Assembly (NCBI GenBank): GCA_902771735.1
Contig: CACXXO010000007.1
Coordinates: 147,561-211,560 of the forward strand
Source: an uncultured Bacteroidota bacterium
GTDB lineage: Bacteria; Bacteroidota; Bacteroidia; Bacteroidales; P3
DNA length: 64,000 bases
Direction of reading: 5' to 3'
How positions within the stretch are numbered: the stretch's first letter is position 1; every line of letters starts with the position of its first letter. Below the pieces are notes generated by a model. That model searched no databases and had not been told where the DNA came from. It saw only the letters and a program-made list of their open reading frames with translations. A program made the translations under genes and the position numbers. This document shows, piece after piece, positions 5,686 to 47,552 of the stretch.

Positions 5686-6321
5686 CTACCAGCGTCCGTT
5701 ATGCACGCGGGAGGGGTCCCATTTGTCCTTGGGCTGGGTGGTGCCGTCATGGTAGCCGATGGGGACGACGGCGTAGGGGACCACCGAGGCGGGGAGGCCG
5801 AGGCAGCGCTTGACGGGGGCCATGGTCTCGGCATAGGGGTAGCAGGCTGTCCAGCAGGCACCTAAGCCGTAGGCCTCGACGGCGAGGAGGAGGTTCTCGG
5901 TGACGGCTCCCATGTCGTCGCGCCAGAGTTGGTTGACCTGTGCCACATCGGGGCCGTCGGGGTTGTCGCGCGTGGGTCCCATGTGGATGGTGTCGGCGCA
6001 GATGACGACGATGGCGCCGCTCTCCTTGAACTTCTGCATGTTGTGATTACCCTCGAAGATGCTGTCATACTGGCTCTTGTCGGTGAGCACGACGAAGCTC
6101 CAGGGGCGCCAGTCGCGGCCGCTGGGGGCGGCCATGGCGGCACGGAGGATGTTTTCCATCACCGAGTCGGGGATGGCTTCGCCGTTGTAGGAGCGTACGC
6201 TCTTGCGGCTGAGGATGTTGTCCATCACAACCCCAGTTGGATTGATGGTGTCGCATTGTTTTTCGCAGCAGGCGCCGAAAAGCATGGCGGCGGCTGCCAT
6301 CATTAATAAGGATTTTTTCAT
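5686..6321 (-). CDS. Nitroreductase-family lipoprotein
   Basis: A 211-residue protein with a lipoprotein signal (lipobox LFGAC, lipidated Cys at residue 18) followed by a nitroreductase domain. Family marks are ILSRKSVRSYNGEAIPD (FMN-binding Arg-x-Ser-Val-Arg region, residues 38-54), AAMAAPSGRDWRPWSFVVL (residues 61-79) and YGLGACWTA near residue 155. Such enzymes use FMN and NAD(P)H to reduce nitroaromatics, quinones or similar substrates; the substrate here is unknown. A lipid anchor on a nitroreductase is unusual but recurs in Bacteroidales. It starts directly after the NamZ-like gene's stop, so it is the last gene of that operon. Confidence 0.88.
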   Translation of the reverse strand: MKKSLLMMAAAAMLFGACCEKQCDTINPTGVVMDNILSRKSVRSYNGEAIPDSVMENILRAAMAAPSGRDWRPWSFVVLTDKSQYDSIFEGNHNMQKFKESGAIVVICADTIHMGPTRDNPDGPDVAQVNQLWRDDMGAVTENLLLAVEAYGLGACWTACYPYAETMAPVKRCLGLPASVVPYAVVPIGYHDGTTQPKDKWDPSRVHNGRW

Positions 6322-6322
6322 A

Positions 6323-7471
6323 TTATTTATAAATTAAATATTTTTCGCGGATTTTCTTGAACTCGTCGAGGGCGGGCTGCCAGGTGGCGCGGATCTCCTC
6401 TTCGGTCATACCTGCCTCTATCTGTTTGCGGAGTTCGCCGTTGCCGGCCAGTTTCTCAAAGAAGTTGTTTTTGAGGAAGAACTTGCCCTTCGGCACACGG
6501 CGGTACATCTCCATCAGATAGTTGAGACTGAAGGCTGAGGGAGCGGGTTCCTGTCGCAGGTCGAGGGTGTCGGTGCCATAGGTGACCCACTCGAAGGGGT
6601 GGTCGGTGCCACGACCTACTCCGCAGTGGGTGCCCTCGAAGAGGCAGAGCGAGGGGTAGAGGGCGATGGCGTGGGCGTTGCGCAGGTTGGGCGACGGCGG
6701 CACAGGCAGCTCGTAGCCGATGCTGTCGCGTCGGTAGCCCTTCATCTTGACGATAGTCAAGTCGCAAGTGTCTTTTATCCAATGCTCACCGTTGATCATC
6801 TTTGCATATTCTCCTATCGTCATACCATAGACCACCGGCACAGGGTGCATGCCCACAAAGGAGCGGTAGCGCGCGGTGTCGAGTACCGGGCCGTCGACAT
6901 AATGTCCGTTGGGGTTGGGGCGGTCGAGGACAACGAGCGGTATGCCCGCTTCGGCGCAGGCTTCCATCACATAGTGTAGCGTGCTGATATAGGTGTAGAA
7001 GCGGCACCCCACATCCTGCAGGTCGAAGACCACGCAATCCACATCCTTCAACTGCTCGGGCGTGGGTTTCTTGTTCTTGCCGTAGAGCGAGATGATGGGT
7101 AGGCCGGTCTTGGCGTCGACGCTGTTGTCAACATGGGCTCCGGCCTCAGCAGTGCCGCGAAAACCGTGCTCGGGACAGAAAATCTTCACTACTTGAACCT
7201 TCTTGGCCAACAACGTGTCCACCAGATGGGTGCTCTCAACCACAGAGGTTTGGTTGCCCACCACGGCCACGCGCTTGCCGTCGAGCCATCCGGTCCACAC
7301 AAAACCCACCATCACCTCGGCCCCCATGCGCATCTGGCCCGGCACGTCGCGGCACGACCACACCTCCTCGAGCTGTGGCACAAGCCTTTTCTCCTGGGCA
7401 TGGCAACAAGAATTGAGTTGCAACAATGTCACAACACACAGAACCAGAGTATGTGCCAGCCGATTTTTCAA
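6323..7471 (-). CDS. Exo-beta-N-acetylmuramidase NamZ-like protein (DUF1343)
   Basis: A 382-residue exported protein. The N-terminus is a signal peptide with a possible lipobox (LNSC). The body has the DUF1343 landmarks VAVVGNQTSVV, FCPEHGFRGTAEAGAHVDNS, GLPIISLYG, VVFDLQDVGCRFYTYISTL and LDRPNPNGHYVDGP. In Bacillus subtilis this family (NamZ) removes terminal N-acetylmuramic acid from peptidoglycan fragments, so a role in cell-wall recycling in the periplasm is likely. It lies 17 bp after dut and abuts the nitroreductase gene, indicating one transcript. Confidence 0.87.
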   Translation of the reverse strand: MKNRLAHTLVLCVVTLLQLNSCCHAQEKRLVPQLEEVWSCRDVPGQMRMGAEVMVGFVWTGWLDGKRVAVVGNQTSVVESTHLVDTLLAKKVQVVKIFCPEHGFRGTAEAGAHVDNSVDAKTGLPIISLYGKNKKPTPEQLKDVDCVVFDLQDVGCRFYTYISTLHYVMEACAEAGIPLVVLDRPNPNGHYVDGPVLDTARYRSFVGMHPVPVVYGMTIGEYAKMINGEHWIKDTCDLTIVKMKGYRRDSIGYELPVPPSPNLRNAHAIALYPSLCLFEGTHCGVGRGTDHPFEWVTYGTDTLDLRQEPAPSAFSLNYLMEMYRRVPKGKFFLKNNFFEKLAGNGELRKQIEAGMTEEEIRATWQPALDEFKKIREKYLIYK

Positions 7472-7981: not shown

Positions 7982-9112
7982 TCAAACTCCTTTGATGAAA
8001 TCCAGATAGTTATCCCGATTGACAACTTTGAATGTATGGTCTGGATAGTTCTTCATAAAAGTATCGGTCAGGCGTGGCTGCTTGGTGCCGCTCCATTTAA
8101 ACTCATAAGCATGCAATACACCGTCATAATCCTCAATATAATCCACCTCCTGCTGCTGTTGTGTGCGCCAGAAATAACTTTTGCCATAAAACGCATTGTA
8201 TGCGTTGTGTTTCATACGCTCACTGATGAGGTAATTCTCCCATAGAGCACCTGTATCTGTACGCAATGCCAAAGGTTTATAGTCGCCAATGAGTGCGTTA
8301 CGTACACCATTGTCGCAGAAATAAAACTTGCGGCTTTTCTTCAACTCGGAACGCACATTGCGGCTGAACGACCGCAAGTGGAAGATAACATACGACTTCT
8401 CCAGCAGGTCGATATACCGTTGCACAGTGACTGAGTTCAAGCCAAGCAGCCTGCCAAGTTCGTTGAACGACACCTCGCTGCCGACCTGTAATGCCAGCGC
8501 CTGCAGCAATTGCTCAATGATTTCAGGTTTGCGCACGTCTTGAAATGCAAAGATGTCTTTGTAGAGGTAGCTGCTTACCAAGTTGGTTAGCGTTTCTCGC
8601 TCCTCACCGGGATTATTGACCACTTCAGGATAGGCACCATAAATCAACCTACGCTCCAGCAGCCTTCGCTCTTCCTGTATCCCATTTTCCTTTACCAGCT
8701 CCTCGACAGAAAAGGGGAAGAGGACATACTCGTACTTTCGACCCGTCAGCGGTTCGTTGATGGAGTTGGAAAGCTCGATGGCCGAAGACCCCGTAACAAC
8801 CACCTGTTTCCCCGGATAGTTGTCGATCAGCAACTTCAGGGTGATGCCAATATTCTGCACACGCTGAGCCTCGTCGATAAACACGATGTCATACCCTGCG
8901 GTCTCGTTTCCCAACATAGTAGAGGTAGGATCAGTAAGTTTGCGTCGTACGTCGGGCTCGTCACAATTCCACACAAGGACCTTACGGTCATACTCGTTTG
9001 CAAGCATCTTCAGCAGTGTGGTCTTGCCCACTTGACGAGGACCTACGACTATGATAGCTTTACCTCTGAAGAATTTCTGTTTAATCGTACTTGTAATCAG
9101 CCTATTAACCAT
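7982..9112 (-). CDS. AAA+ ATPase with DUF4143 C-terminal domain
   Basis: A 376-residue ATPase of the widespread family that joins an AAA_14 domain to DUF4143. Walker A is VGPRQVGKTTLLKML near residue 23, Walker B YDIVFIDEAQRV near residue 83, a sensor-like TGSSAIEL follows, and the C-terminal part has YFCDNGVRNALIGDY and a nuclease-fold-like QQQEVDYIEDYDGVLHAYEFKW. Function is unknown. I start at the ATG at 9112 (MVNRLITSTIK) because the promoter -7 box lies at 9138-9145, which rules out the in-frame upstream start at 9148. No partner gene is next to it. Confidence 0.85.
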   Translation of the reverse strand: MVNRLITSTIKQKFFRGKAIIVVGPRQVGKTTLLKMLANEYDRKVLVWNCDEPDVRRKLTDPTSTMLGNETAGYDIVFIDEAQRVQNIGITLKLLIDNYPGKQVVVTGSSAIELSNSINEPLTGRKYEYVLFPFSVEELVKENGIQEERRLLERRLIYGAYPEVVNNPGEERETLTNLVSSYLYKDIFAFQDVRKPEIIEQLLQALALQVGSEVSFNELGRLLGLNSVTVQRYIDLLEKSYVIFHLRSFSRNVRSELKKSRKFYFCDNGVRNALIGDYKPLALRTDTGALWENYLISERMKHNAYNAFYGKSYFWRTQQQQEVDYIEDYDGVLHAYEFKWSGTKQPRLTDTFMKNYPDHTFKVVNRDNYLDFIKGV

Positions 9113-9137
9113 CTTAAAACATCTTTTATTTCCTCTG

Positions 9138-9210
9138 CAAATATACAAACTTTTTTGATTATACTAAAAAAATCTTATAATATTTTTTGATTATACTAAA
9201 AAAATCTTAT
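9138..9210 (-). promoter_or_regulatory. Promoter of the AAA+ ATPase with duplicated upstream element
   Basis: On the minus strand TATATTTG (complement of 9138-9145) is a -7 box, with TTTA 19 bp upstream. A direct repeat of about 28 bp (9151-9178 and 9183-9210, each containing TTGATTATACTAAAAAAATC) covers the -33 region and the stretch above it, as expected for a doubled operator. Confidence 0.6.
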
Positions 9211-9605
9211 CCTCTGGACTCTGTTTCACAAATAAATCCATCAAGGGAATTTGCACATTTTCTGCAATATGATGAAAATAATTTTTTCCAGTTGGATTAT
9301 TATTCGTACTTTTGCAGTTGCTTTCGAGAGCGAAAGCAGTAAGCAAGAAAAGCATTGCGATACTGTCCTTTGATAGAAAATTTGGCAGATTTTACTTGAA
9401 GGAGGATCGAGCATTTATGCTTTCGCTTGATTGTGTATGCTATATCCCTGTAGCATATCTTCAGGCGTGAGATATGTTCCATTATACCCCGTTCCTTCAA
9501 AGGTTTGCCAAAGCCTCTATCAAGACGGACATGAGTACATAACCTCATGCCTTTTCTTATTGTTTATAATGTTTTCCGTTGGAGGGTCGGACTGGGGAAT
9601 TAAAA
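9211..9605. other. Gene-poor stretch with a plus-strand promoter
   Basis: TACTTTTG (9307-9314) matches a -7 box and would give a leader of about 285 nt before the gene at 9606. The leader begins with a small hairpin (CTTTCGAGAGCGAAAG). An 82-codon minus-strand frame (9300-9548) is open but has no recognised domain and overlaps the promoter, so I do not call it. Confidence 0.4.
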
Positions 9606-10263: not shown

Positions 10264-12297
10264 ATGAAAAAAGTATTACTGCTGTTCGTCTCTTTATTTG
10301 TTTTAGGGCAAATTGCTTTTGCCCACTATAACCATTCGATAATCACATCGAGCGGACAGACGCTGTATTTCACGGTCTATTCCGATTTTTACCATAATGG
10401 CTACGCTTTAGTAACATATCCCGGGGCATGGGAATACCCATATTTTGCACCAAGTGGGTCAGGACACAATTATAACTATACAAGGCCAATTGGAGACATA
10501 GTCATCCCCGATAGCGTCACATTATTGGGATACAACTATCCCGTCACTGGCATTGAATCCAGAGCTTTTTATGGCTGTTCGGAGATAACTTCCATCACCA
10601 TACCTGAAGGTGTTGCCACAATAGGTAATCAGGCTTTTTGTGGTGACAGCCTTGCCTCAATCACCATCCCGTCTAGTGTTGACTCAATAGGCGAAAATGC
10701 TTTCTCTGGGTGCACAATTACCGCTGTTAATTACTCTGGCACTATCAACCAATGGTGCAATATTGACTTTTCTAACGGCTATTCCAATCCTGTATTTGAT
10801 TGCACAATATTGAATATAAACGGCAGTCCTGTAAATAATTTGTTAATTCCAGATAACGTAGAAATAATAAAGCAATTTGCCTTCTGGGGTTACATGGGTT
10901 TGACATCCGTCACCATTTCAAACGGCGTTACCTCAATATCTATAGGCTCTGCAGCATTCGGATCGTGCTGGAATCTCACCTCTGTCACCATCGGAAGCGG
11001 TGTAACACATATTGGACAGGGTGCTTTCGCATATTGTTCCGATATAATGGAAGTGACATGCTTTGCCAATGTGCCGCCCAATGTGGAAGATACGTTTGCA
11101 TTTTATTGGGTGAACCGCAATATACCACTTTATGTGCCTTCATCATCTGTCAGCAGTTATCAGTCGGCTCCTGTTTGGAGTGAGTTTACCAACTATATAG
11201 GCATAGGTCCACACACCATCACCGCTACAAGTGCTGATCCTGCAATGGGAACGGTAACCGGTGGCGGCACCTATAACGGAGGCGCAACAGCCACGCTGAC
11301 GGCCACACCCAACATGGGCTACCATTTCGTGCAATGGCAAGACGGGAACACGCAGAACCCGCGTACCATCACCGTGACAGGCGACGCTACCTATACGGCC
11401 ACTTTTGCTGCCGACGCAGCGCCCGCCACGGTGACAGCAACGATTAGCCAAATTGCAGCCACCAGCGCATACGCCGAAATTGTTATGGGGCAACAGACTT
11501 CGTACTTTTACCTTATCTACGCTCCGCAGTCGGTATTCACCCAGAATGGACTGACTACCGACGAGGCAATTATCAGTTATGTCAATCAGCATTATGGCTC
11601 ATCGGACAGAAACTATAGCAATGTGTCGGGATACATGAACGACCTGACACCCAACACAACCTATCAACTGGTAGTAGTGCCTTACAACAGCAATGGCGAA
11701 GTCGGTATGGTCTGTTGGGAGCAGTTCACCACACTGAATGAAACAGACCCCGCCACGGTGACAGCGACAATTAGCGAAGTCACCGCCACCAGTGCATACG
11801 CCGAAATCGTCATGGGACAACAGACATCGTATTTTTACCTTATCTACGCTCCTCAGTCGGTATTCACACAAAACGGACTGACAACCGACGAAGCGATTAT
11901 CAGTTATGTCAATCAGAACTATGGCTCGTCGGACAGGAACTGCAACAATGTGTCGGGATACATGAACGACCTGACACCCAACACCACCTATATGTTAGTG
12001 GTAGTACCCTACAACAGCGACAACGAGGTGGGTATGGTCTGCAAGAAGCAATTCACCACGCTGAACAATAACGGCATTGAGGATGTTGGCGAAGAGGAGT
12101 ATGCCGTAAGCAGCCAGGATGGCCGCCTGACGGTCAGCGGTGCCGAAGGTAATATGGTAAATGTCTATAGCCTCGACGGACGTTGCATATATTCGGCAAG
12201 TGCCAAAGGGACAACTGTAATCGACATCCCCGCCTCGGGCACCTACCTTGTCAAAATCGGCCGTCATCCTGCCCGCAAGATGGTGGTTATTCGGTAG
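10264..12297 (+). CDS. BspA-type leucine-rich repeat surface protein with T9SS sorting domain
   Basis: A 677-residue secreted protein. Order of parts: signal peptide (residues 1-20, MKKVLLLFVSLFVLGQIAFA); LRR_5/BspA repeats (about 75-290, recurring SITIPEGVATIGNQAF-like units); a Listeria-Bacteroides InlB B-type repeat (about 320-385, with GTVTGGGTYNGGATATLTA); two nearly identical modules of about 105 residues (about 388-490 and 496-600), fibronectin-III-like; and a C-terminal T9SS type A sorting domain (about 605-677, VNVYSLDGRCIYSA, GTYLVKIG). It is predicted to be exported by Sec and T9SS and displayed on the cell surface, probably in adhesion. Binding partners cannot be read from the sequence. 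Confidence 0.88.
   Translation: MKKVLLLFVSLFVLGQIAFAHYNHSIITSSGQTLYFTVYSDFYHNGYALVTYPGAWEYPYFAPSGSGHNYNYTRPIGDIVIPDSVTLLGYNYPVTGIESRAFYGCSEITSITIPEGVATIGNQAFCGDSLASITIPSSVDSIGENAFSGCTITAVNYSGTINQWCNIDFSNGYSNPVFDCTILNINGSPVNNLLIPDNVEIIKQFAFWGYMGLTSVTISNGVTSISIGSAAFGSCWNLTSVTIGSGVTHIGQGAFAYCSDIMEVTCFANVPPNVEDTFAFYWVNRNIPLYVPSSSVSSYQSAPVWSEFTNYIGIGPHTITATSADPAMGTVTGGGTYNGGATATLTATPNMGYHFVQWQDGNTQNPRTITVTGDATYTATFAADAAPATVTATISQIAATSAYAEIVMGQQTSYFYLIYAPQSVFTQNGLTTDEAIISYVNQHYGSSDRNYSNVSGYMNDLTPNTTYQLVVVPYNSNGEVGMVCWEQFTTLNETDPATVTATISEVTATSAYAEIVMGQQTSYFYLIYAPQSVFTQNGLTTDEAIISYVNQNYGSSDRNCNNVSGYMNDLTPNTTYMLVVVPYNSDNEVGMVCKKQFTTLNNNGIEDVGEEEYAVSSQDGRLTVSGAEGNMVNVYSLDGRCIYSASAKGTTVIDIPASGTYLVKIGRHPARKMVVIR
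11425..12060 (+). repeat. Intragenic tandem duplication of a surface-protein module
   Basis: Two units of roughly 320 bp (starting near 11425 and 11750) encode almost the same 105 residues, both with QQTSYFYLIYAPQSVFTQNG. The few differences are mainly silent, so the duplication is recent or homogenised by gene conversion. Confidence 0.85.
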
Positions 12298-22064: not shown

Positions 22065-23168
22065 TTACTTTGAGAGTGAGAAATTGACGGGCATATTGAA
22101 TTGCACACGGACACTTCTATGGCGTTGTTGGCCAGGCGTCCACTTAGGCATCATTGTCGCCACGCGTATTGCCTCGGCGCCGCAGCCGCCACCAATGTCG
22201 CGCAGGATTCGGGGGTTGCTGATGCTGCCGTCTTTCTCGACAACAAAGGTGATATACACTTTGCCGCTGATGTTCATTCTCTTGGCTTCCTTCGGGTAGC
22301 GGATGTTGTCCTGAAAGAATTTTAACATGGCTTCTATGCCGCCGGGAAACTCGGGATCTATTTCAACAACTGTGAAGATTTCATTTTCTGATTCCGGACC
22401 CACCACCACTGGCTCAACCTCAATCCACTCTTCCGGACGTTTCTTCGGCAAGTGGAAGTCGACGTCAAGCTGGTAGACGGTACTTACGGGGCCGACACCT
22501 TCGATGCCTCCGGGCTCCCATTGCGGCATGCTTCTCACCAGGCGTGCGACCTCTTGGGCACATTGGCCTCCGATGTCGTGCAGGATGCGGTAGTAGATGA
22601 CCTCTCCTGATTCGTTGATACGCAACGCCAACGACACACGACCTTGAATCTTCTTGTCGTAAGCCTCCGGAGGGTAGCGCAAGTTGCGGTCAACCCATGC
22701 CTTCAAGCCCTCTTCGCCTCCGGGGAACATGGGGTCTACACCGGGATGAAGATAGGCTTCCTCGAAGAATCGGTCCTCGTCGGGGTCGTCGGGGACAGGA
22801 TATTCGAAAGGAAGTGATAAATCGGGGGTTTGAACCATACCCGTTGCTCCCTCCACATCATCATCGTAGTCTCTATTGGTTTCATCCCAGTTGTTCTGAT
22901 TCACAGAGGAATCGCTATTGGGGGAAGAGCAACTGCCACAGGCGGCCAGCGAGACACAAAGTCCCGCCACGGCAACCTTCTTCCCCAAACGTTTACGACG
23001 GTCCAACGCTTCTTCCAAATACCGCACCTCGGCTTCGCAGCGCGGGCAAGTTCCGCGACAGGGCCCTTCATAGGTGCATTCTTTCATCTCCAAAGGAATG
23101 TCGTTCTCCTCGGCGATGCGGCGGCGCACCTCCTTGAGTTGCTTGCAGATGTTTTTTCCTCGTGTCAT
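22065..23168 (-). CDS. Energy transducer TonB-like protein with two TonB C-terminal domains
   Basis: A 367-residue protein. The N-terminal 60 residues are soluble and hold a four-cysteine cluster (CTYEGPCRGTCPRC, residues 31-44) that looks like a small zinc ribbon. A single membrane helix follows (KVAVAGLCVSLAACGSC). Two TonB_C domains come next: one near residues 150-255 (FPGGEEGLKAWVDRNLRYP, GRVSLALRINESGEV) and one near 270-365 (FPGGIEAMLKFFQDNIRYP, GKVYITFVVEKDGSI). TonB proteins pass proton-motive energy to outer-membrane receptors, but proteins with doubled domains in Bacteroidota may instead be structural. The role is uncertain. Confidence 0.8.
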   Translation of the reverse strand: MTRGKNICKQLKEVRRRIAEENDIPLEMKECTYEGPCRGTCPRCEAEVRYLEEALDRRKRLGKKVAVAGLCVSLAACGSCSSPNSDSSVNQNNWDETNRDYDDDVEGATGMVQTPDLSLPFEYPVPDDPDEDRFFEEAYLHPGVDPMFPGGEEGLKAWVDRNLRYPPEAYDKKIQGRVSLALRINESGEVIYYRILHDIGGQCAQEVARLVRSMPQWEPGGIEGVGPVSTVYQLDVDFHLPKKRPEEWIEVEPVVVGPESENEIFTVVEIDPEFPGGIEAMLKFFQDNIRYPKEAKRMNISGKVYITFVVEKDGSISNPRILRDIGGGCGAEAIRVATMMPKWTPGQQRHRSVRVQFNMPVNFSLSK

Positions 23169-27257: not shown

Positions 27258-28508
27258 CTATTTTATTACCAAAACGGAGCCAGTAAAAATCTTGACGCGG
27301 TTGTTGTTGAAGCGACAGCGGAGGGCGTAGGCGTAGGCGTCCTGAGGGGTGTCGGCAGAGGGGGTCCAGCCGGCGAGGGGATCCTCGGTGGAGTAGACGA
27401 GAAGGCCGAAGCGGTTATAGATGAAAAGCTCGTAGAGGTCACCTTTGAGACCGCGCAGGCGTGGGAGGAAGGTGCCATTGACAGGATCGCCTACAATGAT
27501 GACATTGGGGAAGGCCCATGCGGGATCGGGAGGCGTGGGGACGACAACGCAGAGGGTGTCGGACGAACGAGGATTGAGGTTGCAGGCATCTGGAACCTCG
27601 AGGCGGTAGCAGTGGAGAGAGTCGTAGATGTTGATATCGCTATCGACATAGGTGAAGGGGGGCTCGGCGAAGAGGAGGGTGGCGATGGAGTCCCACGGGG
27701 AACCGTCGACGCTACGATAGAGAGTGTAGCGGCCGCTATGGTAGGCGGTGTCGATGTCAAACGAGAGAATATTGCGCCAATGGATACTGTCGTATTCGAT
27801 GCCAGAGATGGAGAGGAAGGCGGCGGTGTCGACAGTGAGCCGTTCCACATGAACAAGGTTGGACTGCGAAACGAGGGGGTGGCCGTTATGGATATCGCCA
27901 AAACTCTCGGCCTGTAGTTTGAGCCACACACGTGTGGTGCTGTCGGGAATGGTGAAAGAGTAGGTGAAAGGGCCGGTGCTGTCGGTGGTAAAGCAGGTAC
28001 GGTAATCGTCGTCGAATGGTTCGAGGCGCACCTTGAGACGATAGCAGTAGATGCCGCCGGGCATGCCTCTATAGGGTGTCCACGAAGCGTTGACGGTAGA
28101 GGAGCAGCGCGGCACCTCGGCAGTGAGGACTATGTTGCCGAAAGAAGGTGTCAAAGAACTGACATCGTAGGTACTGTCGAAGACATGGATACGATAGGTG
28201 TGAGGCTCTGTGGCGTCATGATCGAGGCAGACGAAAGATGTATCAAGACGTCCGAAGACGGTGTCGTAGTCGAGGCAGGGAGTGCCCGTGCAGATGTGGT
28301 AGCCCATGGTCTGCGGATCAGTGCTGGGGTGCCACGAAAGAACAATCTGCTGTGTGGCCTCGTCGACGGTGGCCAACCAGCCAGTGACGGGTGCCACGGT
28401 CACCTGGGCAAAGAGGGATGGTAAAGATAAGAAACAAGAAATGAGTATTAGGCTGACGCGTGAGAGCCGCGTTAGCACATTTCTCATTCTAAATTCCACA
28501 TTCTTCAT
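27258..28508 (-). CDS. Secreted fibronectin-III-like protein with T9SS type B sorting domain
   Basis: A 416-residue exported protein. A signal peptide (residues 13-35, ending LFAQ) precedes several fibronectin-III-like modules (for example QQIVLSWHPSTDPQTMGYHI near 52-71 and STVNASWTPYRGMPGGIYCY near 140). The last ~85 residues (PNVIIVGDPVNGTFLPRLRG, YELFIYNRFGLLVYST, TPQDAYAYALRC, GSVLVIK) match the gliding-motility-associated (CHU_C, T9SS type B) sorting domain. Surface delivery is therefore likely. It is embedded in a housekeeping operon between an ABC exporter and nadK. Confidence 0.83.
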   Translation of the reverse strand: MKNVEFRMRNVLTRLSRVSLILISCFLSLPSLFAQVTVAPVTGWLATVDEATQQIVLSWHPSTDPQTMGYHICTGTPCLDYDTVFGRLDTSFVCLDHDATEPHTYRIHVFDSTYDVSSLTPSFGNIVLTAEVPRCSSTVNASWTPYRGMPGGIYCYRLKVRLEPFDDDYRTCFTTDSTGPFTYSFTIPDSTTRVWLKLQAESFGDIHNGHPLVSQSNLVHVERLTVDTAAFLSISGIEYDSIHWRNILSFDIDTAYHSGRYTLYRSVDGSPWDSIATLLFAEPPFTYVDSDINIYDSLHCYRLEVPDACNLNPRSSDTLCVVVPTPPDPAWAFPNVIIVGDPVNGTFLPRLRGLKGDLYELFIYNRFGLLVYSTEDPLAGWTPSADTPQDAYAYALRCRFNNNRVKIFTGSVLVIK

Positions 28509-42512: not shown

Positions 42513-42545
42513 TGTCAGATTCAGGATGAAAAGTGGGTATTATAT
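42513..42545 (+). promoter_or_regulatory. Alternative-sigma promoter P1, ahead of sigma fusion 1
   Basis: TGTCAGATT (42513-42521), 15-bp spacer, GTATTATAT (42537-42545). The same two boxes with the same spacing precede three other genes in this cluster. Only 6 bp separate the second box from the ATG at 42552, predicting a leaderless mRNA. No housekeeping TAnnTTTG box is present. Confidence 0.75.
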
Positions 42546-42551
42546 ATGTAG

Positions 42552-43631
42552 ATGAACCGACATTCTGCATATACTGCCCTTTTGCAGCGTCACCGTTCTA
42601 TGGTGTGGCGCATGTGCTGGATCAGTGCGCGAGGCGACTTTGAGCGTTGTCGCGACCTGGTGCAGGAGGTTTCCATTGCGCTGTGGCTCCATTTCGATAA
42701 GTTGCGTCCCGGCACCTCGCCCCACGAAGAAAAAGCATGGGTGCGGTGGCTGACACGTACCACCCTCGACCACCTGTGCCGCCACCAGCGTCCTCCCATG
42801 CTGGCGTTGACGAACGCTATGGCCGAGAGTATCCCCGAAAACAGCAGTATGGCTGAGGATATCGAAGAACTGATGGCAGTGCTCAGTTCAGAAGAACAAC
42901 AGCTGCTGCGGTTGCACATCGAAGGCTATCGTGCCGACGAGATAGCCCAGACAATGGGTCTCAACCGCGATGCGGTCTACCAACGTCTTCACCGCGCTGT
43001 AGGTAAGATGCGCCGTGTGGCCTTGTTGTTGCTGCTATTCTGCCTGGTGGCCACTGTAGCCGTCGCTGTGGTGCCCCAATGGCGCCAGTGGGTGACGTCT
43101 CGCACGGTGAAGGAAGAAAAGCCCTCAGAAGACCCCTTAAAGCCCTCAGAAAGCCCCTCCCCTACCCCGGACACGATTCCCAGGGACGACAGTATCGCTG
43201 TCGTCGGCCGTCAGCCGTGGATTCCACCCTCGCCGATTCCTCATCTTGTCTCGGTCTCCACCCCATTTTTCCCTGCCCCGCGGGTCCCTTGTGGGTGTGA
43301 CGACACGATTCCCAACGACGATTGCATCCCCCTCGACGACGATTATGAGACCGTCGTTGAGGAGGTGTTTCCCGAAGTGACCATCATCGTCCATGGTGAT
43401 ATTATCACCGTGGAGGGTGCTTCCGACGAGTCGGTCAGCGTCTTTGATGCCCAGGGTCGTTTAGTCGTCATGTCACAATGCAATGGCCACTGCTCGCTCG
43501 TTATCAGGAATGACTTCAACTATCATTCTCGCACGACTGGGCCTGTTGCCTATTGGGTGCAGGTGGGCAACCGTCCTTGTCAGCGTGTCTTTCTTAATCA
43601 CAAGCCAAGCAGTGGCATCATTCACCTTTGA
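42552..43631 (+). CDS. Membrane-tethered ECF-type sigma factor with T9SS-CTD-like periplasmic domain (paralogue 1)
   Basis: A 359-residue fusion. Sigma-70 region 2 spans about residues 10-80 (CRDLVQEVSIALWLHF, WVRWLTRTTLDHLCRH). Region 4 spans about 104-152 (LSSEEQQLLRLHIEGYRADE, IAQTMGLNRDAVYQRLHRAV). KMRR then precedes one membrane helix (156-175, VALLLLLFCLVATVAVAVVP), which places the sigma part inside and the rest outside. A proline-rich linker contains WIPPSPIPHL (223-232), shared with paralogue 2. Residues 278-348 (IITVEGASDESVSVFDAQGR, AYWVQVGNRPCQRVFL) resemble a T9SS type A sorting domain. Ordinary ECF sigma factors stop near residue 190. No anti-sigma gene is adjacent; the tail may replace it. 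Confidence 0.85.
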   Translation: MNRHSAYTALLQRHRSMVWRMCWISARGDFERCRDLVQEVSIALWLHFDKLRPGTSPHEEKAWVRWLTRTTLDHLCRHQRPPMLALTNAMAESIPENSSMAEDIEELMAVLSSEEQQLLRLHIEGYRADEIAQTMGLNRDAVYQRLHRAVGKMRRVALLLLLFCLVATVAVAVVPQWRQWVTSRTVKEEKPSEDPLKPSESPSPTPDTIPRDDSIAVVGRQPWIPPSPIPHLVSVSTPFFPAPRVPCGCDDTIPNDDCIPLDDDYETVVEEVFPEVTIIVHGDIITVEGASDESVSVFDAQGRLVVMSQCNGHCSLVIRNDFNYHSRTTGPVAYWVQVGNRPCQRVFLNHKPSSGIIHL

Positions 43632-43639
43632 TAATGGTT

Positions 43640-45424
43640 CTATTGCAATATCATCTTTTTGTCGACACTCCCGTTGTTGCCATGGAGTCGTAGCAGGTAG
43701 GCTCCTCGGGGAAGGTTGCCAACTGTTATTTCGATACTGCTGTCTTCCAAGGTTCTTCTGAGGATGGTTTGTCCGAGGATGTTGACCAGTTCTATAACTT
43801 GGTAACCAAGAACATTGTCGACAACAATCCGATTGGTGGCGGGGTTGGGGAAGACGGTCACTACCTTTTTTTCTGGCTTGTCGAGACTGTTGCAATCTTC
43901 CACAAATTTGTCTGCGAAGAGGTTCCAGTAGTTGTCTGTCAAATAGGTTTGGAGACTGCCGCAGGGGATGAGGATGGTGTCAACGTTGGCCTCAAAGAGG
44001 CAACCGTAGTCGTTACCATATTCCGGCATAGTGACTGTGACGGGTGGTACGCTGTTTATGAGACGCAGCATCCCGATATGGCGCCAAGTGAAGGCCTCCT
44101 GTTCGATGGTATCGACCTCCGAATTGAAAACCACACGGCTCATCGGCAATCCTTGAGTGTAGCACGAGAAAGCTCCCAGCCTGACAGTCCGCAGCAATGG
44201 CGGCAGCACGAGCTCTCCCAGAGCGCAGCCTCCGAAGGCAGAAGTGTCAATCACCACCACATCATTGCCAAAGGTGACAGATGCCAGTGATTCGCAGCCA
44301 TAGAACGCATCGCGAGGAACTATTCGCATACCGTTGGGTATGACTATGGTTGTAAGTGCGCCGTCATTCTCAAAGCAACCCATCCCCATTGTGCTGAGAC
44401 TGTCGGGCATGTTGGCCCGAACGAGAGCATCGCAATTGTAGAAAGCATACTCGCCGATCAAGTCCATTTTCCTTGGCAGGTCGATACTGGTTAGCGTGCT
44501 GCTGTTGAAGGCATTGTCAAGGATGGTGGTTACGCTGTCGGGCACAACAACATGGCGGATATTGCCATTGCCGGCAAAGCCAGTGAGGACATGCAGTGTC
44601 GATGGCAGACGGACTGTGTCTGTGCTTTTGTGACACGACAGGAGGGTGTCGCCGCCAGTGGAATAGAGCATCAGCCCGTCCATATAATAATGGCTGTTGC
44701 CCTCGGCGATGGTGATACTGTCAAGTGACATGCAATTGGCGAAAGGTGAACCCTCGATGTGGGATACCGTCGAAGGGATGGTGATGTTGCTTAGTCGCTG
44801 GTTGTCCACAAAGGACCAGAATCCAATGCTTTGCATCCCTTCGGGGAGTATGTATCCAGTAATCGTCTGGCAATAAGCGAAGCCGTAAGGGGCAATATGT
44901 TTCACCTGCTGAGGCAGCTCCATTATGCCGCTTTTCGAGAATGGGCATTCCACCAAAGTAGAGGTGTCCTTGCTATAGAGGATGCCGTCGATGGCCCTGT
45001 AGGAGGGGTTGTCCTCCGCCACGTTGATGGCGGTGATGCCTGTGGAGGCAAAGGCTAACGGCCCGATGTAGGTCACCGTGGCAGGGACGGTGATGGATGT
45101 GAGATTGGTGGCCATGAAGCATCCGTAGCCAATGCGTGTGACTGACGAAGGGATGCTGACACCGGTGATGCGGCTCCCATAGAAAGCATTGTCGGCTAAA
45201 GCAACGACGCTGTAGGTGGTGCCGTCATGTGTCACCGTGGCAGGGATGGGAACGTTGCCGCTAAGGCGATTGCACCCATATTCCGGCACCTCGACGGTAT
45301 GTTCCATCGGCGAAAGAATTTTGTATGGGATTCCTCCCACGATGAAGTCATAGATTTGTGCTGTTGTGGTGCCAGGGAGGCAGATCATGGCCATGATGGC
45401 CAAAATAAAATGAATTTTTTTCAT
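43640..45424 (-). CDS. BspA-type leucine-rich surface protein with T9SS sorting domain
   Basis: A 594-residue secreted protein: signal peptide (MKKIHFILAIMAMICLPGTT), then many BspA/LRR_5 units (GVSIPSSVTRIGYGCF, SITVPATVTYIGPLAF, TSIDLPRKMDLIGEYAF), then a T9SS type A sorting domain (VVTVFPNPATNRIVVDN, IELVNILGQTILRR, GAYLLRLHGNNGSVDKKMIL). It should be displayed on the surface as an adhesin or scaffold. I start at ATG 45424 since the sigma-type promoter boxes lie at 45454-45486; the frame open to 45487 crosses that promoter. It converges with sigma fusion 1 (8-bp gap) and diverges from the lipoprotein gene. Confidence 0.88.
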   Translation of the reverse strand: MKKIHFILAIMAMICLPGTTTAQIYDFIVGGIPYKILSPMEHTVEVPEYGCNRLSGNVPIPATVTHDGTTYSVVALADNAFYGSRITGVSIPSSVTRIGYGCFMATNLTSITVPATVTYIGPLAFASTGITAINVAEDNPSYRAIDGILYSKDTSTLVECPFSKSGIMELPQQVKHIAPYGFAYCQTITGYILPEGMQSIGFWSFVDNQRLSNITIPSTVSHIEGSPFANCMSLDSITIAEGNSHYYMDGLMLYSTGGDTLLSCHKSTDTVRLPSTLHVLTGFAGNGNIRHVVVPDSVTTILDNAFNSSTLTSIDLPRKMDLIGEYAFYNCDALVRANMPDSLSTMGMGCFENDGALTTIVIPNGMRIVPRDAFYGCESLASVTFGNDVVVIDTSAFGGCALGELVLPPLLRTVRLGAFSCYTQGLPMSRVVFNSEVDTIEQEAFTWRHIGMLRLINSVPPVTVTMPEYGNDYGCLFEANVDTILIPCGSLQTYLTDNYWNLFADKFVEDCNSLDKPEKKVVTVFPNPATNRIVVDNVLGYQVIELVNILGQTILRRTLEDSSIEITVGNLPRGAYLLRLHGNNGSVDKKMILQ

Positions 45425-45453
45425 AGAATTTCTTTTTTGGGGTTTATCTGCTA

Positions 45454-45486
45454 ATATAATACCCTTTTTTTGACCCAAATCTGACA
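45454..45486 (-). promoter_or_regulatory. Alternative-sigma promoter P4, ahead of the LRR surface protein
   Basis: Read on the minus strand: TGTCAGATT (complement of 45478-45486), 15-bp spacer, GTATTATAT (complement of 45454-45462). Predicted leader about 23 nt. Confidence 0.75.
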
Positions 45487-45513
45487 ATGAGAGAAAATTT
45501 TTTTCCCCTCCTA

Positions 45514-45546
45514 TGTCAAATTTCGACCCTTTTCTGGGTATTATAT
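45514..45546 (+). promoter_or_regulatory. Alternative-sigma promoter P3, ahead of the lipoprotein gene
   Basis: TGTCAAATT (45514-45522), 15-bp spacer, GTATTATAT (45538-45546). The 25 bp from 45536 to 45560 are repeated exactly, inverted, at 45440-45464 as part of P4. Confidence 0.75.
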
Positions 45547-45576
45547 TAGCAGATAAACCCTAAAAAGTGATACACC

Positions 45577-46512
45577 ATGAAAACAACAAACAATTCAAAA
45601 ACAACAAAGATGAAAACAAACCGTTTTTCAGTGTTGTTGCCGATATTGGCAGCGGCCATGATGGCAGTCACTTCCTGTGACAAAGACGATGAGCCGACCC
45701 AGGCAGAGACGACAGATCCTTTCGATGTCAACGGTGCCAGCAAGGCGCTTTTCTCGGTGGCAGCGAACAGGCAAGTGCACATCTCGCGGGGTAACCTGCA
45801 GTATCAGGCCTCGACCGACAGCTGGCGTTTCGCCGAGAGGCAGTATGAGGTGATGGGAGAGGCCAACAACGCGGTATCTCCAAGCAACGAAGGCTGGATT
45901 GACTGTTTCGGCTGGGGTACCAGCGGATGGGAGAGCGGAGCCAACGCCTACCAGCCGTGGTCCATCAGTGTCGACGATGCCGACTATCAGCCCGGCGGCA
46001 GTTGGCAGAACGGACTTACGGGCGATTACGCCAATGCCGACTGGGGCGTGTACAACGCCATCTCGAATGGCGGCAACCAGGCGGGTATGTGGCGCACGCT
46101 GACCAATGTGGAATGGGCTTACCTCTTCGGTGGCGGCAGCCGTGCCAGCAAATGGGGAAGAGCCACCATCGATGACCGCTACAAAGGCCTCATCCTCCTG
46201 CCCGACGAGTGGACAGCTCCCGACGACATCAGCTTTAATCCTGCTCACAACAGTTTCAACTCCAACGCCTACACCATGGAACAGTGGGAACGCCTTGAGG
46301 CTGCCGGGGCTATTTTCTTGCCTGCTGCGGGATTCCGGCAGTACACATTCTTCAACTATGAGAACCAGTATGGTGTCTATTGGTCGGTGTCTCTCTATGG
46401 TGCCGAATATCCCGATTGTGCCCTTGGCCTTCTCTTCAACGACAACTCGCTTTATCCCAGCGACGGCGAGGGTCGCAGCAACGCCTTTTCGGTGCGCCTG
46501 GTGCAGGACTGA
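45577..46512 (+). CDS. Lipoprotein of a Bacteroidales surface family, controlled by the sigma-type promoter
   Basis: A 311-residue protein. The signal peptide ends in a lipobox (AVTSC, Cys at about residue 33 from this start). The mature part opens VNGASKALFSVAANRQVHIS, then RGNLQYQASTDSWRFAERQY, and is rich in Trp and Gly (FGWGTSGWESGANAYQPWSI, GGNQAGMWRTLTNVEWAYLF). I recall such proteins as a multi-copy Bacteroidales family of unknown function with a possible formylglycine-enzyme/lectin-like fold, but cannot confirm it. ATG 45577 gives a leader matching that of the divergent LRR gene; ATG 45610 is the alternative. It lies 71 bp upstream of sigma fusion 2. Confidence 0.72.
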   Translation: MKTTNNSKTTKMKTNRFSVLLPILAAAMMAVTSCDKDDEPTQAETTDPFDVNGASKALFSVAANRQVHISRGNLQYQASTDSWRFAERQYEVMGEANNAVSPSNEGWIDCFGWGTSGWESGANAYQPWSISVDDADYQPGGSWQNGLTGDYANADWGVYNAISNGGNQAGMWRTLTNVEWAYLFGGGSRASKWGRATIDDRYKGLILLPDEWTAPDDISFNPAHNSFNSNAYTMEQWERLEAAGAIFLPAAGFRQYTFFNYENQYGVYWSVSLYGAEYPDCALGLLFNDNSLYPSDGEGRSNAFSVRLVQD

Positions 46513-46527
46513 TAGAATTTTTTTTCG

Positions 46528-46535
46528 TATTTTTG
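46528..46535 (+). promoter_or_regulatory. Housekeeping -7 box upstream of sigma fusion 2
   Basis: TATTTTTG at 46528-46535, immediately before the alternative promoter P2, so sigma fusion 2 probably has a basal housekeeping promoter plus a self-dependent one. Confidence 0.55.
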
Positions 46536-46544
46536 CACCTCCGA

Positions 46545-46577
46545 TGTCAGATTTTGGGTGTCGGAGGTGTATTATAT
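46545..46577 (+). promoter_or_regulatory. Alternative-sigma promoter P2, ahead of sigma fusion 2
   Basis: TGTCAGATT (46545-46553), 15-bp spacer, GTATTATAT (46569-46577). The ATG at 46584 follows after 6 bp, the same distance as in P1. Confidence 0.75.
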
Positions 46578-46583
46578 TTGTAC

Positions 46584-47552
46584 ATGAGCCGTCATAGTGT
46601 CTATACGGAATTGCTGCAACGCCACCGCAAGATGGTGTGGGGGTTGTGCTGGAAGCAGGCCCACGGCCATTATGAGCGCTGCTGCGACCTCGTACAGGAG
46701 GTCTCTGTCGCGCTATGGCTCCATTTCGACGACCTGCGCCCCGATGCTTCGCCCCGTGAGGAACGCGCCTGGGTGCGTTGGTGGACACGCTCGGTGCTCG
46801 ACCTGCAGCGCCGCAAGGAACGCCCGTCCCTTTTGCCACTGACCGCCATGGTGGCCGACACGGTGGCTGCCGACGACCTCTTGATGCATAAGGAAGAGAT
46901 GGAACATCTGATGGCTGCCCTCAGCCCCGCGGAGCAAGAATTGGTGCGCCTCCATATCGAGGGCTACCGCTCCGAAGAGATTGCCGAGACGATGGGGCTC
47001 AGTCGCGATGCCGTCTACCAACGCTTTCACCGCGCTGTGGTCAAGATGCGCCGTGTGGCACTGCTGCTGGTGCTCCTCTGTGTGGCAGCCACCGTGGCCG
47101 TCGCTGTGGTGCCTCAGTGGCGCGAGCAGGTGTTCTCTCGTTCCGGCAAGGAGGAAACGCCCGAACATGTGATTGTTGAACAGGATGAATCCTGCCCCTC
47201 CCCCACTCTCTCGGCGACAGCGGAAGCCGAAGCTGACACCGTCGCCTTGCGTCCGGTATGGATTCCTCCGGAACCCCTCCCCTATCTCACCGTTCCGGTC
47301 GACACGGCACTCCCCGACCTGCCGGCCCAAAAGCCGGAAGTGGAGGTTGTCTACGATGGGAAGAGGCTTGTGTTCAATGGCTTGGTCGATGGCGAACTGG
47401 TTGTGGTCCGCAACACGAAGGGTGTCCTCATTGCCCTCAAACGGACTCATGGCACCTCCTGTGCCATCGATTTTCCCGCCTATCGCTATTCCAATACCAC
47501 CTACATCCTCCAGATCGGCACCCGAGCCGACCGCATACGCATAGACCTCTAA
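46584..47552 (+). CDS. Membrane-tethered ECF-type sigma factor with T9SS-CTD-like periplasmic domain (paralogue 2)
   Basis: A 322-residue paralogue of the protein at 42552. Region 2 (about 10-80: CCDLVQEVSVALWLHFDDLR), region 4 (about 106-154: LSPAEQELVRLHIEGYRSEE, IAETMGLSRDAVYQRFHRAV), positive-inside KMRR, one membrane helix (158-177, VALLLVLLCVAATVAVAVVP), linker with VWIPPEPLPYL (225-235), then a terminal beta domain (about 253-322, LVFNGLVDGELVVVRNTKGV and TTYILQIGTRADRIRI). The sigma half is strongly conserved between the paralogues; the linker is not, apart from the WIPP motif. I use ATG 46584, homologous to the other start. A frame opening upstream at 46380 overlaps the lipoprotein gene and is rejected. 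Confidence 0.85.
   Translation: MSRHSVYTELLQRHRKMVWGLCWKQAHGHYERCCDLVQEVSVALWLHFDDLRPDASPREERAWVRWWTRSVLDLQRRKERPSLLPLTAMVADTVAADDLLMHKEEMEHLMAALSPAEQELVRLHIEGYRSEEIAETMGLSRDAVYQRFHRAVVKMRRVALLLVLLCVAATVAVAVVPQWREQVFSRSGKEETPEHVIVEQDESCPSPTLSATAEAEADTVALRPVWIPPEPLPYLTVPVDTALPDLPAQKPEVEVVYDGKRLVFNGLVDGELVVVRNTKGVLIALKRTHGTSCAIDFPAYRYSNTTYILQIGTRADRIRIDL

Follow-up and report, generated by a model that had tools for sequence, protein, structure and literature searches.

Sigma factors fused to a membrane helix and a tail descended from the type IX secretion sorting domain in an uncultured Bacteroidota bacterium

To our knowledge, it is poorly understood how Bacteroidota match the production of cargo to the capacity of the type IX secretion system (T9SS). 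A stretch of 64,000 nucleotides of an uncultured Bacteroidota bacterium (assembly GCA_902771735.1, contig CACXXO010000007.1, positions 147,561 to 211,560; hereafter the window) raises a related question: two paralogous genes in it encode sigma factors that run on, in the same chain, into a membrane helix and a small C-terminal tail resembling a T9SS sorting domain, and what could such a tail tell a sigma factor? We consider it rather probable that each protein is a tethered extracytoplasmic function (ECF) sigma factor that arose by fusion of a sigma factor with a membrane anti-sigma-like partner, and that cleavage would release it onto a promoter-like element of the locus.

The two proteins and the descent of their tails

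Both paralogues have the same layout: sigma-70 regions 2 and 4, one transmembrane helix, a proline-rich linker and, at the end, a tail some 70 residues long (Table 1). A preliminary description of the locus had claimed complete regions 2 and 4 in both proteins, and this was borne out by scores above the Pfam cut-offs; the ECF assignment follows from TIGR02937 (61.1 and 65.1 bits in paralogues 1 and 2, cut-off 42.9). The start of paralogue 2 was placed at the ATG at 46584, which matches the alignment of relatives, whereas the mechanical open reading frame (ORF) opens earlier, at 46380. The linker motif WIPPxPxPxL described earlier is indeed common to both proteins (WIPPSPIPHL and WIPPEPLPYL), and the membrane helix, directly behind region 4, is strong in both (19-residue hydropathy of 3.15 and 3.12) and is kept in all 70 fused proteins of the census given below, the window pair included. 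In the AlphaFold model of paralogue 1, the sigma helices and a beta domain at residues 277-348 are confident and the linker is of low confidence; a single helix, residues 139-173, comprises the last helix of region 4, which we take to be the DNA-reading helix, continuing into the membrane helix. The tail itself was modelled as all-beta, with a predicted local distance difference test score (pLDDT) of 87-95 across most of the core, in agreement with the terminal beta domain proposed earlier. Pfam searches at E≤1 matched neither window protein to the FecR family or to a zinc-finger anti-sigma family, nor did they find a carbohydrate-binding domain such as that of SCO4117.

Profile comparison makes the tail a homologue of T9SS type A sorting domains, with which it shares the fold and from which it can be shown to descend. 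The tail profile, built from 30 tails of sigma factors and their partners only, matched the sorting C-terminal domains (CTDs) of cargo proteins of related loci with an hhalign probability of 98.7% (E 2.4e-16) and 21 CTDs of the window's genome with 93% (E 3.4e-7), which places the resemblance to T9SS sorting domains beyond chance; the cargo domains themselves matched the same 21 CTDs with 97.4%. The profile was also run at E≤1e-3 against the ORFs of 75 loci. It found 20 proteins outside the sigma and partner set, matched C-terminally with E from 6e-12 to 9e-5. All 20 are leucine-rich repeat (LRR) proteins, 9 as tested by Pfam (LRR_5) and 11 LRR-like by eye or pattern, and each of their C-termini hits TIGR04183 at E≤1 (best 8.3e-11). 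In a fold search of the PDB, RgpB or cargo CTD entries stood at ranks 2, 4 and 6; ranks 5 and 10 went to small chains from complexes of the T9SS translocon, one entry being titled with the RemA CTD. A sequence search of the PDB with the tail profile returned mostly WD40 matches over short stretches, which were judged an artefact. Elsewhere in the window, positions 10264-12297 encode a surface protein with LRR and InlB repeats, in whose C-terminus DUF6383 lies barely over the cut-off and TIGR04183 under it; this C-terminus is of the CTD type without the PNP start, shared with the cargo of the sigma loci.

The tail is not a simple copy of the cargo signal, because two residues are mostly lost from it. 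The glycine of GxY and a lysine, both invariant in 20 of 20 cargo CTDs, are kept in only 1 and 5, respectively, of the 30 sigma and partner tails, a result that does not support the earlier notion that the tail duplicates the T9SS cargo signal in the periplasm. Both residues are present in all 11 complete relatives of about 800 amino acids (aa) that carry an LRR passenger, whereas of 53 tails that lack a complete LRR part (in 49 it is absent, in 4 short) none has the glycine and 4 have the lysine. On our reading, the lost residues would be the glycine of motif D and the lysine of motif E, a pair that the sigma tails mostly lack; lysines of motif E are reported to be required for efficient secretion, and motifs D and E to govern the contacts with PorM and PorV (PMC10202324). 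A cysteine, C41, is conserved in at least 90% of the 30 tails and is absent from most of the cargo CTDs compared. The tail is probably a repurposed sensor that is not exported; it may sense cargo or the T9SS without export of its own, or it may sense something else.

That something else could be a ligand. A domain merely descended from a CTD might serve as an immunoglobulin-like (Ig-like) sensor of an external or periplasmic molecule, for instance a fragment of a plant polymer, with no link to the T9SS beyond the shared cargo, an explanation that we regard as possible, though on the unlikely side. It would account for the loss of residues reported as important for secretion (PMC10202324) and for the conserved C41; the tail fits other Ig-like folds as well, and the inferred regulon holds lipoproteins, which are not necessarily T9SS cargo. 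On the other hand, the nearest match of the tail is the CTD of the next-door cargo behind the same element, and the intact CTD signature on the LRR passenger of the ~800-aa relatives is hard to explain without the T9SS.

Fused and split relatives and the release of the sigma factor

The window proteins are not lone oddities. A census of distinct sigma domains in the fetched loci gave 54 fused rows, 16 fused with an LRR part and 34 with sigma only (rows distinct by sigma-domain sequence; L035-L074 and L101-L175 largely cover identical genomes twice), and thus 68 fused proteins besides the window pair. Three of the 54 (L154, L157, L160) are really LRR-fused but cut or broken, and the 34 include L101|25 and L102|22, truncated where their stretch ends but actually fused, and L071|33, which has a transmembrane helix. 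The tail profile matches 64 of the 70 fused proteins; of the others, four are cut by contig ends (L050, L058, L157, L160), L154 has a broken frame and L054 another C-terminal domain. By eye, the extracytoplasmic domain of this L054 protein (8426-9592), behind its sigma and transmembrane parts, resembles the small lipoproteins of sigma loci. In L154 (5926-8363) the sigma-transmembrane part (285 aa) and the LRR-CTD part (612 aa) are out of frame, and relatives have them in one frame; in L065 (7830-8978, G086:C14) a class B gene for sigma, transmembrane helix and tail has an in-frame TAG within its region 2 part, and the truncated row L065|25 was excluded from the tree and the motif count. When 148 genomes were searched with paralogue 1, strong matches were confined to one genus; outside it, E was no better than 2.9e-9. 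A scan of a genome collection (best 80 of 109 kept) gave 75 named loci, all from uncultured Bacteroidales or Bacteroidetes; ruminants figure in many of the sample names.

In genomes G056, G075 and G076 and at loci L147, L150, L152, L159 and L165, a lone sigma gene, encoding 155-163 aa, is followed by a partner gene. The split partner consists of about 45 cytoplasmic residues with a motif like MTDGLxEW, a transmembrane helix, a linker and an LRR part; of eight complete ones, four match the tail profile, and the L152 partner is CTD-like by eye only. Past the membrane helix, this last partner reads VVPQWRPAFF and the fused form VVPQWRxxVF. Behind other sigma genes, in the window's genome too, there are shorter partners, 82-90 aa in length, whose cytoplasmic motif is similar (L075, L166, L167). 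Since relatives thus have a sigma factor and a separate membrane partner, the window proteins look like sigma::anti-sigma fusions, in which the transmembrane helix and tail would correspond to the membrane partner minus its cytoplasmic segment. The split partner, by its position and design, is a putative anti-sigma factor, and the system, as judged from sequence, is a fused version of the usual two-gene sigma/anti-sigma design. The preliminary description had set sensor, anchor and sigma factor in one chain against the usual separate anti-sigma factor; the architecture was confirmed, but relatives do possess a separate membrane partner gene.

The ~800-aa relatives, in turn, look like in-frame fusions of the sigma-transmembrane part to a cargo gene, because an internal segment resembling a signal peptide, mostly with a conserved methionine, remains in them; in split partners such as those of L147 and L165 it is degenerate. 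A free-standing relative of their cargo is found in L206, behind its own element. Paralogue 2 of the window clusters with three ~800-aa relatives in a quick tree with several long branches, supported solely by the Shimodaira-Hasegawa-like approximate likelihood-ratio test (SH-aLRT) and used for clustering, not for a count of fusion events. Comparison by eye of L057 (7657-8808) with L055 (14341-15483) revealed near-identical tails behind sigma domains that differ in clade and in -10 type, as if the sigma head had been swapped and the tail retained.

With sigma factor, transmembrane helix and periplasmic domain in a single chain, and with two-gene relatives, the window proteins have an IutY-like design, and a mechanism may be proposed along these lines. 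While tethered, the sigma factor would be inactive, because the helix reading the -35 block passes without a break into the one that spans the membrane. An event in the periplasm, at the CTD-derived tail, would bring about cleavage in or near the membrane helix, and the freed sigma factor, recognising the element TGTCAGATT-N16-TATTATA, would raise the expression of its own gene and of surface cargo. Cleavage is proposed because the activation of IutY is reported to need it (PMC5411451; PMC8999054) and because an RseP-family protease is encoded in the window's genome; activation by proteolytic release is likely. The same genome encodes a T9SS (SprA at E 0; 53 TIGR04183 matches at E≤0.001). As the tail descends from a CTD and the element is shared, we hypothesise that the trigger is T9SS or cargo status, most likely the periplasmic cargo or the occupancy of the T9SS, which would be felt through the CTD-like tail. 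A more detailed version, which we offer tentatively and hold to be somewhat unlikely, is that the tail acts as pseudo-cargo reading the secretion flux: it would compete or form complexes with the CTDs of the same cargo whose promoter the sigma factor would use, so that a backlog of cargo or a vacancy of the T9SS controls cleavage of the tether, and in the ~800-aa proteins the sensor would be the cargo itself. If this is true, export of the LRR passenger in these relatives acts directly on the tether, and the system is a one-protein feedback loop coupled to secretion.

Membrane-bound one-component regulators function while tethered, and the sigma factor might likewise be active without proteolysis, the tail altering its conformation or dimer state. 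The VVPQWR region after the membrane helix is highly conserved and could serve assembly as well as cleavage, and cleavage of these proteins is proposed from precedent. We nevertheless find tethered activity doubtful in view of the continuous helix of the model, the encoded protease and the behaviour of the studied single-chain example, IutY, which needs cleavage (PMC5411451; PMC8999054).

A promoter-like element before sigma and surface protein genes

The element on which the released sigma factor would act was found with the pattern TGTCAGATT-N16-TATTATATNTGTA at up to 3 mismatches: there are 4 sites in the window, against none in 100 shuffles, and 4 in the whole 2.29 Mb genome, one 5' of each of the two sigma genes and of the LRR and lipoprotein genes between them. 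A pattern with a 15-nucleotide spacer gave no matches, the actual spacer being 16. We then scanned 148 genomes, 89 of the same genus and 59 of other genera, for TGTCAGATT-N16-TATTATA with at most 1 mismatch, which yielded 120 sites in the former (reversed-pattern control 4) and 20 in the latter (control 8). Exact sites numbered 59, all within the genus and none among the 59 genomes of other genera. Matched singly to the DNA, 27 of them lie 5' of sigma genes, 31 lie 5' of genes for exported proteins, and one (L053) is at a contig edge, where the contig stops shortly after an ATG. By a crude hydropathy rule, 30 of the 31 exported-protein ORFs have a signal peptide or lipobox, and a lipobox was recognised by eye in L220. 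The exported proteins comprise LRR proteins, lipoproteins of small size and a group that starts with a GVPYATLQL-type sequence; recurrent regulon candidates of this last kind (L207, L211, L214, L215, L227 and L039 5671) begin, after the signal peptide, with a sequence like LxGRVxxxGxGVPYATLQLxGTSxGVSCND and are carboxypeptidase-regulatory-like by eye. The LRR cargo gene between the two window paralogues is a putative regulon member, as is the lipoprotein-like protein next to it, of which L072 and L213 have what look, by eye, like counterparts preceded by the element. Mere copying of a shared upstream sequence was ruled out because the spacers are not alike and the genes that follow are unrelated.

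At sigma genes, the distance from the end of the element to the ATG is mostly 5-9 nucleotides (142 in one case), so the sigma transcripts may be leaderless. A search upstream of the census genes, with looser settings than the count of exact sites (at most 2 mismatches, spacers 13-18, up to 130 nucleotides), found it before 42 of 53 fused, 15 of 16 LRR-fused and 9 of 34 sigma-only genes. As seen by eye on the tree, -10 variants track the sigma clades, and at locus L041 a changed -10 block, TAATAT, is common to sigma and cargo genes. This putative promoter links the sigma genes to one another and also to LRR cargo of the T9SS type, to lipoproteins and to further exported proteins, and control of surface cargo by the sigma factors is well supported on sequence grounds.

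Might the sequence instead be the site of another regulator, or a 5' leader element common to the locus? With a close homologue of paralogue 1 defined as E≤1e-40, a threshold of our choosing, sites with at most 1 mismatch occur in 35 of 42 genomes of the genus with such a homologue versus 7 of 47 without (Fisher p 4e-11), and exact sites in 26 of 42 versus 1 of 47; the 42 include G009, G011 and G068, whose best match is a split sigma gene, and G028, with a different tail. The seven exceptions, which include G021 with an exact site 5' of an LRR gene, speak for another regulator, as does the -35 half, which at some loci, by eye, forms part of the loop between the variable arms of an inverted repeat. 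However, among the six of them examined, three (G006, G024, G061) have their sites before another sigma gene, those of G021 and G048 precede genes for exported proteins, and G005 has no clear gene; together with the skewed counts and the agreement of -10 variants with sigma clades, this makes the alternative highly doubtful.

Some further observations concern these upstream regions. At 46536-46575 of the window, and likewise 5' of the sigma genes of L055, L056, L057 and L067, the -35 block is seen by eye in an inverted-repeat loop, e.g. CACCTCCGA...TCGGAGGTG, the arms of which vary among loci but remain complementary; the repeat is directly 3' of a TATTTTTGCAC box, which we take to resemble a housekeeping -7 element. 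A sigma-only clade within the genus, L162-L175 (mostly 165 aa; ORF at about 5983-6480 in most), has an element of its own shortly 5' of the ATG, mostly with a -35 like xGTAAGATTTG and a -10 like CGTCTTATA; L167 in this clade has a short transmembrane partner with a motif like MTDGLxEW.

Weight of the evidence and comparison with known systems

Several observations weigh against a releasable sigma factor that carries a CTD-derived sensor and acts on this element. Single tails fall under the T9SS family cut-off: the paralogue 1 tail scores 13.1 bits against TIGR04183/PF18962 (cut-off 23), and TIGR04183 matches at E≤1 in 6 of 30 tails, with a best E of 0.027. The best E in the PDB fold search is 2e-3, with none below 0.001, and other Ig-like folds match the tail too; the hits include beta-glucuronidase and fibronectin-like domains. 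Three of the eight complete split partners (L147, L159, L165) have no tail, which is therefore not essential to every member. The relatives behind the element and tail counts are kin, so the counts are of non-independent events, and the promoter role of the element is inferred from position and conservation. Among 53 fused genes, 8 lack a fitting element 5' of their own ATG; in L059, L061 and L072 an element instead stands 5' of a lipoprotein gene that precedes the sigma gene, and L063 is the case with 142 nucleotides. A matched change of the -10 block in sigma and cargo genes is clear in L041 alone, and the blocks of L037 differ. Finally, class B sigma genes have another -10, GTAATGTAT; control of adjacent cargo through it was sought, and no cargo gene with a GTAATGTAT-type element was seen beside them.

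That the tail is a working T9SS signal, exported or anchored across the outer membrane with the sigma factor behind it in one envelope-spanning protein, is very unlikely: it suits the glycine and lysine kept behind the LRR passenger of the ~800-aa relatives and the linker of the shorter fused proteins (68-118 aa, median 79, n=49), which we infer could span the periplasm, but it misfits the window proteins and the near-complete loss of both residues from the 53 tails without a full LRR passenger.

Table 1. Features of the sigma locus, numbered from the first nucleotide of the window
Feature	Position	Strand	Evidence
Promoter-like element TGTCAGATT-N16-TATTATAT, 1 nucleotide 5' of the ATG of sigma gene 1	42513..42550	+	0 mismatches
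Paralogue 1 (P0001), sigma-transmembrane-tail protein, 359 aa	42552..43631	+	
Paralogue 1, sigma-70 region 2, residues 10-80	42579..42791	+	PF04542 28.1 bits, cut-off 24
Paralogue 1, sigma-70 region 4, residues 102-153	42855..43010	+	PF08281 38.3 bits, cut-off 25.7
Paralogue 1, transmembrane helix, residues 156-174	43017..43073	+	hydropathy and model
Paralogue 1, CTD-like tail, residues 275-348	43374..43595	+	
BspA-type LRR protein (594 aa) ending in a T9SS type A sorting domain	43640..45424	-	LRR_5 E 5.1e-67; TIGR04183 E 6.5e-11, above cut-off
Promoter-like element 5' of the LRR cargo gene	45449..45486	-	exact at TGTCAGATT and TATTATA
Promoter-like element 5' of the lipoprotein gene	45514..45551	+	1 mismatch over two blocks
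Lipoprotein-like protein, 311 aa	45577..46512	+	no family above cut-off; inferred regulon member
Promoter-like element, 1 nucleotide 5' of the ATG of sigma gene 2	46545..46582	+	
Paralogue 2 (P0002), sigma-transmembrane-tail protein, 322 aa	46584..47552	+	
Paralogue 2, sigma-70 region 2, residues 10-79	46611..46820	+	PF04542 26 bits, cut-off 24
Paralogue 2, sigma-70 region 4, residues 104-155	46893..47048	+	PF08281 41.9 bits, cut-off 25.7
Paralogue 2, transmembrane helix, residues 158-176	47055..47111	+	
Paralogue 2, CTD-like tail, residues 252-322	47337..47549	+	tail profile 66.3 bits, E 2.4e-19 (partly a self-match, as both window tails are among the 30 members)

Two other genes of the window were noted by eye. 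An exported protein encoded at 27258-28508 on the minus strand has a C-terminus like a T9SS type B (gliding-associated) domain, and the product of 22065-23168, also on the minus strand, has a cysteine-rich N-terminus, a membrane segment and two TonB-C-like repeats.

The tethered sigma factor proposed here joins a CTD-derived sensor and a regulator in one chain, and its element names the likely regulon from sequence alone. A secretion signal domain would have been captured for signalling, with loss of residues tied to export, beside relatives that retain both signal and passenger. This suggests that these uncultured gut bacteria may tune their surface proteins through a modified copy of those proteins' own sorting label.

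IutY of Pseudomonas putida (ECF243) has a partner domain of the FecR type, whereas the periplasmic domain of the window proteins is CTD-derived and without a FecR match at E≤1. As reported, IutY likewise unites in one chain an ECF sigma domain on the cytosolic side with an anti-sigma domain in the periplasm (PMC5411451); it answers the siderophore aerobactin, unlike the window proteins, the inferred regulon of which is surface cargo. The actinobacterial groups ECF48, ECF52 and ECF53 are similar in their C-terminal fusion to a membrane anti-sigma portion, and SCO4117 in a proline-rich extracytoplasmic region that ends in a sensor-like domain; but theirs is described as a zinc-finger anti-sigma domain, whereas in the window proteins the transmembrane helix directly follows region 4, and SCO4117 has a carbohydrate-binding domain that these proteins lack in the Pfam search (PMC8999054). 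With the T9SS type A sorting domain (TIGR04183, PF18962) the tail shares fold, descent by sequence and the core GExVxVYDxxGR, and it differs in the lost GxY glycine, the mostly lost lysine and the inner-membrane anchor in front; it has no PNP start, but neither do the neighbouring cargo CTDs.

In the literature searched, which covered few subscription papers, we recognised no description of a sigma or anti-sigma factor with a domain derived from a T9SS CTD. The nearest system described there is PorA-PorXY-SigP of Porphyromonas gingivalis, in which a T9SS CTD protein is reported to feed an autoregulating ECF sigma factor that controls T9SS-related genes (PMC7712824). In that account PorA is a separate surface protein acting via a two-component system, and SigP controls genes of T9SS components (PMC7712824); in the window, by contrast, a single chain contains both the CTD-like domain and the sigma factor, and the sites of the window's genome that are exact or have one mismatch precede sigma, cargo and lipoprotein genes. 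A survey of class I anti-sigma factors reports such a partner nearby for only 6% of Bacteroidetes ECFs, a figure that leaves room for unrecognised types of partner like the CTD-tailed one (PMC7406223).

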